Shown in pieces: positions 17,782 to 19,682 of a DNA stretch of 64,000 nt. Numbering within the stretch: position 1 is the stretch's first letter; each line of letters opens with the position of its first letter. The position numbers were made by a program, and so were the translations under genes. Location of the stretch: assembly GCF_025770785.1 (NCBI RefSeq), contig NZ_JANZLA010000001.1, forward strand, positions 1 to 64,000. The letters are read 5' to 3'. The stretch comes from Cellulomonas sp. SG140. Its GTDB lineage: Bacteria > Actinomycetota > Actinomycetes > Actinomycetales > Cellulomonadaceae. The notes below the pieces were generated by a model. It saw nothing but the letters and a program-made list of their open reading frames with translations. It was not told the origin of the DNA and searched no databases.

Positions 17782-18537
17782 ATGGAGTCCTCCATCCAGG
17801 AGGTGGCACGGCTGACCGGCACGACCAGCCGGGCACTGCGCCACTACGACCACGTGGGCCTGCTGCGGCCGTCGCGGGTCGGCTCCAACGGCATGCGGTT
17901 CTACGACGCCGCGGCGCTGCTGCGGCTGCAGCGGATCCTGCTGCTGCGCGAGCTGGGGCTCGGGCTGACCGAGGTGCGCCGGGTGCTCGAGCGCGAGGTC
18001 GACGACGTGGCGGCGCTGCGTCGCCACCTCGCCGTGCTGCGCGCGGAGCAGGAGCGCCTCGCCCGGCAGATCGCCTCCGTCGAACGGACCGTCACGGCAC
18101 GAGAGGCAGGAGAAGCACTCATGAGCAACGAGATGTTCGACGGGTTCGACCACACCGTCTACCGCGAGGAGGTGGAGCAGCGCTGGGGCGTGGCCGCCTA
18201 CGCGGAGTCCGACCGCTGGTGGCGGGGGCTCGGCGAGGAGGGTCGTGCCGCCTGGCAGGCCCGGCAGGCGGCGCTGCAGGCCGACTGGCGCGCGGCGGCG
18301 GAGCGCGACGTGGAGCCGGGCTCCGACGAGGCGCAGCAGCTGGCCGCACGGCACGTGGCGTGGTTGGCCGACGTGCCGGGAACACCGGGTCACGGCGGCA
18401 CCCCGGTGCGCGCGTACGTCGAGGGGCTGGCCGACATATACGTCGCCGACCCGCGGTTCGCGGCGCACTACGGCGGGCAGCACGGCGCCGAGCTGGTGCG
18501 GGACGCGCTGCACGCGTACGCCGAGCAGCACCTGTGA
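17782..18537 (+). CDS. MerR-family regulator with TipAS-like ligand-binding domain
   Basis: A 251-residue transcription factor. The N-terminal winged helix (IQEVARLTGTTSRALRHYDH) and the effector-linking coiled coil (to about residue 110) are followed by a TipAS antibiotic-recognition-type domain. That domain starts at MFDGFDHTVYREEVEQRWG, and its central region ends in ADPRFAAHYGGQHGAELV. TipA-type proteins sense thiopeptides or other peptides and activate multidrug genes, often including their own. An internal ATG at 18121 after the coiled coil could yield a TipAS-only product as in Streptomyces. It is probably autoregulated through the promoter just upstream. Confidence 0.92.
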   Translation: MESSIQEVARLTGTTSRALRHYDHVGLLRPSRVGSNGMRFYDAAALLRLQRILLLRELGLGLTEVRRVLEREVDDVAALRRHLAVLRAEQERLARQIASVERTVTAREAGEALMSNEMFDGFDHTVYREEVEQRWGVAAYAESDRWWRGLGEEGRAAWQARQAALQADWRAAAERDVEPGSDEAQQLAARHVAWLADVPGTPGHGGTPVRAYVEGLADIYVADPRFAAHYGGQHGAELVRDALHAYAEQHL

Positions 18538-18569
18538 CAGGACGGCGCCCGGGGGGCACCACACCCGAC

Positions 18570-18650
18570 GGGGGGACGGGGCCCCCCCCCCGGCCCCCGG
18601 GGGGGCCGGTTTCCCGTCCCGGGTTTGGGGGGTTCTTCCCCGGGCGCCGG
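18570..18650. other. Extreme G/C homopolymer tract between convergent genes
   Basis: Between the MerR gene and the convergent peptidase gene lies a stretch of G and C runs of 5 to 10 bases, including ten consecutive C, with several self-complementary blocks. It might act as a bidirectional terminator-like structure. It is also the kind of sequence where assemblies err. No reading frame is evident. See the findings. Confidence 0.6.
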
Positions 18651-18657
18651 TCCCGGA

Positions 18658-19065
18658 TCAGGTGCCGGCCGGCAGGCGGCGACCGACGAGCCGGCCGACC
18701 AGCGCCTCGCGGGGCAGGTACGGCTGCTGCCACGAGCGGGCGTCGTCGGAGGCGTCGCGGTCGTCGCCGAGCAGCAGGTAGTGGTCCGGCGGCACGCGGA
18801 ACGTGCCGCGGAAGACCGACGGGCGCGCGTACGGCTCGTCCAGCGGACGCCCGTCGACGGTGATCCGGCCGTCGGTAAGCACCAGCCGCTCCCCCGGCAG
18901 CCCGACCACGCGTTTGACGATGCGGCGGCCCAGCTCGGCGGAGTCCGCCACCACCACGTCCCCGCGGCGCACGGCACGCCGCCCGAACGACCGGGTCAGC
19001 CACCACGTCCCGGCCCGGAGCGTCGGTTCCATCGACCTGGACCGGACCACGGTGAGCCAGGCCAT
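18658..19065 (-). CDS. S26-family peptidase, nickel-SOD maturation protease (SodX)-like
   Basis: A 135-residue signal-peptidase-like serine protease. The Ser box is VVRSRSMEPTLRAG (Ser near residue 11) and the Lys box is RIVKRVVGLPGE (general base near residue 51). GDDRDASDDARSW is the conserved C-terminal box. Unlike housekeeping signal peptidases it lacks a clear N-terminal membrane anchor, and its size matches the small proteases that trim Ni-SOD precursors in front of an HCD motif. No sodN lies nearby. Its ATG overlaps the stop of a DUF6448 gene whose product has an internal HCD motif, a plausible substrate. Confidence 0.85.
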   Translation of the reverse strand: MAWLTVVRSRSMEPTLRAGTWWLTRSFGRRAVRRGDVVVADSAELGRRIVKRVVGLPGERLVLTDGRITVDGRPLDEPYARPSVFRGTFRVPPDHYLLLGDDRDASDDARSWQQPYLPREALVGRLVGRRLPAGT

Positions 19066-19682
19066 CAGCTGGCGCGCTGGGTGGGCAGCGCGCCGAGGTG
19101 CGCGTGCGGTCGGTGGCCGCCCGCCGCGTCGCTGCCGTGGCCGGCCGCGTAGTGCACGTAGTCGACGTAGGCCGCGACCGCGGCGCGTGCCGCGGGCAGG
19201 TCGCCGGTGTCGTGGTGCTGGAGCGCGCTCGCGGCGGCGAACCGCTCCACGACCCCCGGCCAGCGATCGGCCTCGACCAGGCCGTGCAGCGGGACGAGCG
19301 AGCCGGTCTCGAGCGCCCGGTCGGCGGCCGTGACGGCGGGTGGCTGCGGCGTCCCGGACGGCTTGATGCCGTCGAAGCCGGCACCCTCACCGGCGCGGTG
19401 CAGGCGCACCAGCGTCTCGAGGAAGCGCCGGTCGGCCCCGACCCGCTCCGGGCCGAGCCCGGCGACCACGGCGGTGAACGCGGCCCGGACCTCGTCCTCG
19501 TCGGCAGCGCGCACCCACGCCAGCGCGTGGTTGACGTCGCCGCTGATCAGCGCACGTCGGCCGGCCTTCACCACCGGGCCGTCCTCGGTGTCGCAGTGCG
19601 CGCTGGCCGGTCGCACGACGAGCCGCACCGCTGCCCGCAGGCCGCGCGCGATCGTCCGGGTGAGGGTCCTGCTGTGGGTCAT
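19065..19682 (-). CDS. DUF6448-type protein with His-Cys-Asp motif
   Basis: A 205-residue protein of unknown function. After 28 basic residues (many Arg/Thr; not a classical hydrophobic signal) comes AHCDTEDGPVVKAGRRAL, the signature region of this family, with His29-Cys30-Asp31. The rest is predicted helical (LISGDVNHALAWV onwards), with a DYVHYAAGHG and HRPHAHLG histidine-rich tail. The ATG has AAGGAG seven bases upstream. It overlaps the SodX-like protease gene by 1 bp (TGATG) and has an FNR-type site in its promoter. I infer a metal or redox role, possibly after cleavage before His29; this is not established. Confidence 0.75.
   Translation of the reverse strand: MTHSRTLTRTIARGLRAAVRLVVRPASAHCDTEDGPVVKAGRRALISGDVNHALAWVRAADEDEVRAAFTAVVAGLGPERVGADRRFLETLVRLHRAGEGAGFDGIKPSGTPQPPAVTAADRALETGSLVPLHGLVEADRWPGVVERFAAASALQHHDTGDLPAARAAVAAYVDYVHYAAGHGSDAAGGHRPHAHLGALPTQRAS

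Follow-up and report, generated by a model that had tools for sequence, protein, structure and literature searches.

In nickel superoxide dismutase (Ni-SOD), the nickel hook carries the thiolates of Cys2 and Cys6. The Ni-SOD precursor carries a short leader ending in small-x-Ala right before His-Cys-Asp, and the neighboring gene encodes a small S26 protease, SodX (TIGR02754). We analyzed a stretch of 64,000 nucleotides from Cellulomonas sp. SG140, referred to here as the window, in which a DUF6448 (PF20046) protein and a small S26 peptidase are encoded in the same arrangement. The predicted mature protein would likewise have an N-terminal His and a Cys available for metal. Unlike Ni-SOD, DUF6448 is without detected sequence homology to that enzyme and without Cys6, its linked protease belongs to another tree group than SodX, and its locus in the window includes a Crp/Fnr-type box and regulator.

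Other described systems resemble the locus in part. The N-terminal-His metalloproteins DUF4198, DUF6702, Ang-1, and Ang-2 were found by signal strapping in a 2025 search, and the N-terminal His left by signal-peptide removal binds Ni or other metals (PMC12537917). These proteins belong to other families than DUF6448, which that paper does not name, and they are processed by the ordinary signal peptidase. The window protease shares its S26 catalytic domain with signal peptidase I (TIGR02227; 90.5 bits, passing the cut-off of 47), but has no membrane anchor and is encoded beside one presumed substrate. In the HcpR and DNR regulons, a Crp/Fnr-type regulator is combined with an TTGACnnnnGTCAA or TTGATnnnnATCAA box and with targets such as hcp and norB, TTGACnnnnGTCAA being the HcpR motif of the delta-proteobacteria (PMC1274295). 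A literature search found no paper naming DUF6448 or PF20046, locus-tag searches for S. meliloti returned nothing on its DUF6448 gene, and the passages on unknown genes in PMC13370916 and PMC5701242 do not name the domain.

The features of the locus are collected in Table 1. The window protein covered positions 1–147 of the 147 in the PF20046 profile with 151.5 bits, against a curated cut-off of 27, and a Pfam search at E up to 1 returned PF20046 alone and no Sod_Ni. As the first-pass annotation had stated, the translation has His-Cys-Asp at residues 29–31 behind a basic leader of 28 residues, MTHSRTLTRTIARGLRAAVRLVVRPASA, after which the sequence continues as HCDTEDGPVV; the best 15-residue hydropathy value of the leader was 0.74. 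The annotation was also right about a small anchorless S26 gene next door with a one-base overlap, since the DUF6448 stop codon lies at 19067–19065 and the S26 start at 19065. The peptidase begins with MAWLTVVRSRSMEPT, no N-terminal membrane anchor was found in it, and its Ser (in SMEPT) and Lys (in VKRVVG) are what we take, from the sequence and general knowledge of the family, to be the expected catalytic dyad. The Crp/Fnr regulator has a Cys in the N-terminal motif CVxxVPVFAGL. Just behind the S26 gene, the stretch 18540–18660 is very rich in G and C, with long runs of both, and a promoter and terminator scan including this stretch found none. We read the locus as a self-contained, Crp/Fnr-controlled cassette for nitric oxide (NO) or low oxygen, in which a dedicated protease would free a cytosolic metal hook protein with an N-terminal His-Cys-Asp; this reading may equally well be right or wrong.

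Table 1. Features of the DUF6448-S26 locus in the window
Feature	Position	Strand	Basis or remark
DUF6448 precursor, 205 aa	19682-19065	minus	PF20046 151.5 bits + translation
Leader, 28 residues, basic	19599..19682	minus	not Sec-like; C-terminal A-S-A
His29-Cys30-Asp31 codons	19590..19598	minus	residues 1-3 of proposed mature protein
S26 peptidase, 135 aa, anchorless	19065-18658	minus	PF10502 96 bits
Crp/Fnr-family regulator	20518-19757	minus	PF00027 + PF13545; upstream of DUF6448, same strand
Palindrome TTGACGCAGGTCAA	19739-19752	.	56 bases before DUF6448 start; directly behind Crp/Fnr gene

DUF6448 is a rare and patchy family. Searches with PF20046 found it in 11 of 150 genomes of the window's own family, 9 of 396 of its phylum, and 3 of 398 of the phylum of locus L019, and the tallies for the phyla of L030 and L034 were 5/235 and 8/288; the centre genome was counted each time. 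Since the PF20046 model starts after the HCD motif, the genes it finds are not selected for HCD. Apart from the window gene, 32 genes were found by PF20046 alone, one of them frame-broken, and HCD was present in 32/32. With the addition of a scan of named genomes and of plasmid records, HCDxxxGP was present in 64 of 64 distinct genes; the scan used six patterns, one containing HCD, and the 32/32 is the unbiased count. Genes present under two locus names (L024/L074, L028/L077, L060/L102, and L062/L069) contribute a single time each to the totals of 52, 58, and 64 used throughout. Judged from these sequences, the conservation of HCD is more than chance.

Four further residues, H67, R68, E71, and R138 (mature numbering), were invariant in an alignment of 58 genes picked by the HCD pattern. 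Position 6 of the mature protein is D in most genes, but E, N, A, R, S, and K also occur; five further genes with A, R, S, or K at this position led to D6 being dropped as a candidate ligand. In the C-terminal tail, His 165 and His 167 were nearly invariant in an alignment of 24 sequences. The nearest relative (L013:3085-3711) has a tail of repeated GDAHH units, and thus tail length differs between close relatives. Another member (L030:3079-4086) extends about 180 residues further at its C-terminus. This extension gave no Pfam match beyond DUF6448 at E up to 1e-4, and an ABM domain considered for it was dropped for want of such a match. At L028/L077, a PF13801 metal-resistance gene lies upstream of two tandem DUF6448 genes; the product of one has a Sec-like signal, that of the other a long hydrophobic N-terminus ending in WGIG-HCD.

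The palindrome in front of the window gene has the form TTGAC-N4-GTCAA, of which it is the single occurrence in the 3.81 Mb genome. The expected number was 0.01 per 64 kb by shuffles of the window and about 0.6 per genome, so the position of the box counts more than its number. The Crp/Fnr gene and the box resemble the NO regulons of HcpR and DNR, as the box fits the HcpR motif and is similar to the DNR box; unlike in these regulons, the strict box is found only once in the window genome, and the passages on the regulons do not name DUF6448 (PMC1274295). In 18 of 58 genes, the relaxed form TTGAY-N4-RTCAA was present in the 350 bases preceding HCD, where mononucleotide shuffles predicted 0.04, and its distribution was 17/25 among S26-linked genes versus 1/33 among the others (six of the 33 lying outside the S26 check). 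Of 53 loci, four repeats included, 18 have a Crp/Fnr gene at a distance of no more than 8 kb, and 15 of these 18 share the N-terminal Cys motif of the window regulator.

In other phyla, several close neighbors belong to NO metabolism. The norB gene adjoins DUF6448 at L083, 2 bases behind it if the first possible start is used, and at L171 it lies on the same strand about 20 bases before DUF6448. The hcp gene precedes DUF6448 by 90 bases at L177, and on a Pelobacter plasmid (L057) norV follows nrfA, hcp, and ric beside DUF6448. Additional neighbors are a DUF1858/DUF2249 protein encoded upstream at L079 and a hemerythrin at the Sinorhizobium locus. Beside DUF6448, a recognized NO gene was absent at most loci looked at. 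Pfam typing covered a hand-picked part of the neighbors, six sets of 10 proteins taken mostly from 305 near neighbors and one further list, and these occurrences stand without a background count. Cupin_2 proteins are encoded upstream of DUF6448 at L081:8615-8950 and L172:8005-8469; a cupin beside hcp is among the NO-raised genes listed in PMC5701242. The first-pass annotation had not foreseen that the regulation and some neighbors would point to NO or low oxygen rather than superoxide, and on this evidence a role under these conditions is modestly favored.

The best of the alternatives, whose probabilities overlap and do not sum to one, is that the protein serves as a scavenger, chaperone, or sensor for metal and not as an enzyme against NO stress, with the His-rich tail as its main feature. 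The nearly invariant tail His residues would suit this, as would the PF13801 heavy-metal-resistance genes upstream in L027, L077, L078, and L080, the zf-HC2 protein in L078, and the P-type ATPase genes near L072 and L088. A metal-resistance operon was not the rule at the loci looked at, however, and the FNR-like box and the norB, hcp, and norV neighbors point to NO. We consider this alternative rather unlikely, and because it partly overlaps with the preferred reading of an NO-related protein with an exposed metal hook, the two are not exclusive.

The exposure of such a hook was assessed from the leaders. Leaders were present in 42 of 52 genes, and in 42/42 a small-x-Ala/Gly motif stands at -3/-1 exactly before the His, with A at -1 in 39 and G in 3. 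The other 10 genes are leaderless, and HCD is always preceded by three residues, M-P-P, M-A-P, or GTG-P-P (10/10); ahead of the start, 4 to 6 bases match a ribosome site. A simple ribosome-site score was used to pick the starts, except for nine that were assigned manually, and L054 and L095 had no ribosome-site match. The leaderless class belongs to Actinomycetota (L088-L090, L092, and L096-L101, as well as L042). Its neighbors are varied, including a P-type ATPase, PhoH twice, a kinase, DUF2079, a CoA ligase, and aldehyde dehydrogenase twice, and no common neighbor was found among the Pfam-typed neighbors tried.

Whether a gene has an S26 neighbor largely follows its leader type. An S26 gene adjoins DUF6448 in 25 of 52 genes, HCD being kept in 25/25 of these, and the adjacency was seen in Actinomycetota, Pseudomonadota, Chloroflexota, and Bacillota (phyla taken from record titles). 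It was present with 22 of 25 non-Sec leaders versus 3 of 17 Sec-like leaders (Fisher p 1e-5), a p value that is too optimistic because the rows are related and the threshold was fixed after a first look. The hydropathy threshold for Sec-like leaders was 1.4; at 1.5 the split is 22/26 versus 3/16, and the value was lowered because the plain signal peptide of L076 scored 1.45. The three non-Sec leaders without S26 were those of L054, which has an N-out leader and no S26 gene within its 16.4 kb stretch, of one L077 gene, and of L082, which looks like a signal peptide. None of the 10 leaderless genes has an adjacent S26 gene. For L104 and L105, the S26 status was taken from annotation tables; the contigs of L095 and L100 are shorter than 5 kb, and the genes of L157-L170 were outside the S26 check. 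Neither the exported members with an ordinary Sec-like signal and mostly no linked protease nor the leaderless M[PA]P-HCD class, which keeps HCD without a cut site, had been anticipated by the first-pass annotation.

The leaderless class is the strongest objection to the hook reading. Because HCD is kept there in 10/10 genes without a cut site, a free His amine is maybe dispensable in this class and may not be universal in the family. The three residues HCD could act through internal side chains with no need for a free N-terminus, the leader then being a targeting or membrane-docking peptide whose removal is secondary. The constant spacing of three residues before the His and the lack of a linked S26 gene in leaderless members would agree with such a use of side chains, which is nevertheless improbable: the cut-like site lies exactly before the His in every leader-bearing gene, the presence of the protease follows leader type, and cells might trim M-P-P or M-A-P. 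Cleavage before His29 by the partner protease is regarded as likely, and most likely the mature product would be a cytosolic protein starting with His-Cys-Asp.

The AF2 model of the mature window protein had a mean pLDDT of 90, and of 97 for residues 1-10. The model is helical, and DSSP assigned strand or bridge only at residues 4 and 79, a pair that recurs in the precursor model (mature numbering). Going by DSSP letters alone, the hook thus seems to pack against the loop that comes next to the helix containing H67, R68, and E71, on its C-terminal side. The leader was modeled with low confidence as a helix at 4-20, followed by an extended stretch. A Foldseek search of the PDB gave 0 matches at E up to 0.001, so the fold offers no functional hint, and designed repeat proteins were the best matches of a PDB sequence search. 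With VIA, the best result was Z 5.6 over 53 residues of a DnaK lid, and apo Ni-SOD 1t6i gave Z 3.7 over 66 residues at an rmsd of 3.5, tied with unrelated bundles. These model-based comparisons show neither a new fold nor kinship.

A direct relation to Ni-SOD was sought in the genomes as well. As claimed at first, no sodN is present: a search of the 3.81 Mb window genome with PF09055 (Sod_Ni) gave no match, nor did 14 control genomes, and the same model, as a positive control, detected sodN in 4 of 6 other genomes of actinobacteria that lack DUF6448. Among the genomes searched, 6 of 41 with DUF6448 also have sodN, and 19 of 23 protease-linked genomes lack it, which bears out the suggested co-occurrence of the pair without sodN; the pairing itself was found in 25/52 genes and several phyla. 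The four protease-linked genomes with sodN (G548, G549, G550, and G557) have another S26-type gene beside sodN. The earlier concern that a sodN elsewhere might need this protease finds no support in the window genome or in these four, and the linked protease is, judged from gene content, not borrowed from Ni-SOD. Cys2 is present in DUF6448, but the counterpart of Cys6 is absent, position 6 being Asp in the window protein and Cys in the Ni-SOD sequences compared here. Profile comparison of DUF6448 and Ni-SOD by hhalign gave 0.2%, with shallow alignments of a diversity of about 2 per side, so that a distant kinship could be missed. Ni-SOD kinship was rejected as a demonstrated relation, given the missing Sod_Ni match and the hhalign value on shallow alignments.

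The linked protease was described by the first-pass annotation as SodX type, which was not supported. The window S26 protein scored 18.5 bits for TIGR02754, below the cut-off of 63.25, and a TIGR02754 search of the genome at E 0.001 gave no match; some DUF6448-linked proteases reach 22-29 bits. Only 2 of 10 sodN-linked S26 proteins pass this cut-off and 8/10 miss it; the cut-off is thus weak, and the tree weighs more against SodX. In a maximum-likelihood tree, the ten sodN-linked S26 rows lie on one side of a branch (93/93) without DUF6448-linked rows, and two changes are required for the 27 DUF6448-linked rows, since four LepB rows fall beside the Bacillota pair. These four were the LepB rows kept, the motif filter having missed others, and two identical pairs were included. 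On its score and tree placement, SodX membership of the window protein was rejected. What remains of the original proposal is a protease that would expose HCD on a non-SOD protein, which the recurrent pairing and the cut-like site in 42/42 leaders support, without the SodX identity. The invariance of HCD that it predicted was also found (64/64 distinct genes, 32/32 in the unbiased count), and no homologue that keeps the protease neighbor has lost HCD (25/25).

A Ni-SOD in disguise, with the hook binding nickel and dismutating superoxide and the S26 protein as its SodX, would share the HCD start and a leader that ends in much the same way (VSA, VHA, and others in Ni-SOD versus ASA, VHA, and VQA in DUF6448), and the weak structural alignment with 1t6i agrees with it. 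It is very unlikely, however, in view of the missing Cys6 and Sod_Ni match, the hhalign value, the separate tree position of the protease, and a Z of 3.7 that unrelated bundles attain equally. Nickel superoxide dismutation by DUF6448, taken as an activity on its own, is correspondingly given very little credence.

The pairing of DUF6448 with a dedicated protease is further described by topology, which was judged by eye from N-terminal sequences under the positive-inside rule, by which positive charges following a hydrophobic segment indicate N-out. The 17 anchorless proteases, that of the window included, pair by eye with leaders of hydropathy 1.78 or less. Eight linked proteases of other loci have an N-terminal anchor, by eye six N-out and two N-in. 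Among the six N-out proteases, the partners of five are N-out leaders with hydropathy of at least 2.63 and positive charges after the segment, and the sixth partner (L074) has a truncated leader; the start of the L075 protease is unsure. In two Bacillota plasmid pairs, an N-in protease accompanies an N-in Sec-like signal, both with positive charges before the segment. Read most simply, this agreement suggests that each protease sits on the same membrane side as its precursor, and that precursors out of reach of the housekeeping enzyme require a protease of their own.

Distances among the DUF6448 proteins also correlated with those among the linked proteases (mirror-tree r 0.73, 23 pairs, 0/2000 permutations), a value that still contains shared species history, with pairs spanning four phyla. 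The test excluded L065, whose protease frame is broken, L074, whose protease is truncated, and also L024 and L062. Judged from this co-variation and the adjacency, the recurrent precursor-protease pair is real, and where DUF6448 seems to stay inside the cell, a matching protease usually accompanies it. A role of the S26 protein as an additional signal peptidase of general use, adjacent through mere shared mobility, would suit its signal peptidase I score and the patchiness of DUF6448 (11/150 genomes of the window's family), but is highly improbable given a separate LepB elsewhere in the genome and an adjacency that recurs in four phyla with agreeing topology and mirrored distances.

The conservation of HCD, the position of the cut-like site, the agreement of protease and leader, the co-variation of the pair, the box, and the neighbors are read from the sequences themselves, and the following mechanism is built on them. 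The single TTGACGCAGGTCAA box is probably the binding site of the Crp/Fnr regulator, and the DUF6448-S26 operon would be induced under NO or low oxygen. The precursor, with its non-Sec leader, would remain in the cytosol, where the anchorless S26 peptidase would cut after A-S-A to give a mature protein starting with His-Cys-Asp. A metal site would then be formed near the invariant His67/Glu71 region by the Cys2 thiol together with the freed amine and the imidazole of the N-terminal His, the His-rich tail may collect the metal, and the product could be a metalloenzyme or metal-holding protein that protects against NO or nitrosative stress. Metal binding by the freed N-terminus has slightly the better of the chances. 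For DUF6448 precursors that carry a Sec signal, this cleavage would fall to the housekeeping signal peptidase.

For the family as a whole, we tentatively suggest unrecognized metalloproteins induced by NO or low oxygen, with an exposed His-Cys-Asp active site as an invention independent of the Ni-SOD hook, made on another fold, and with three maturation routes: export with the housekeeping signal peptidase, a topology-matched dedicated S26 protease, and the leaderless M[PA]P form. This comprehensive reading falls somewhat short of an even chance. If it is true, proteolytic exposure of a His-Cys-Asp hook would not be peculiar to Ni-SOD and would have arisen at least twice, each time with a dedicated protease, and a function would be assigned to DUF6448, a domain also present on plasmids of several phyla. 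With one protease, one substrate, and one operator in the genome, the window locus would provide a clear-cut test system.

Some minor observations were made along the way. Two records of 2.1 kb in the phage collection, OR847645.1 and OR849244.1, are named Listeria phage and contain a DUF6448-like stretch; they are too short to judge phage origin. L058 and L105 share a block encoding PepSY, DUF2271, ferric-reductase-like, response regulator, ATP-binding, AraC, and DUF6448 proteins, located on conjugative plasmids of Marinobacter and Citrobacter. In the window, a MerR-type regulator with a TipAS antibiotic-recognition domain is encoded at 17782-18537, convergent to the S26 gene.
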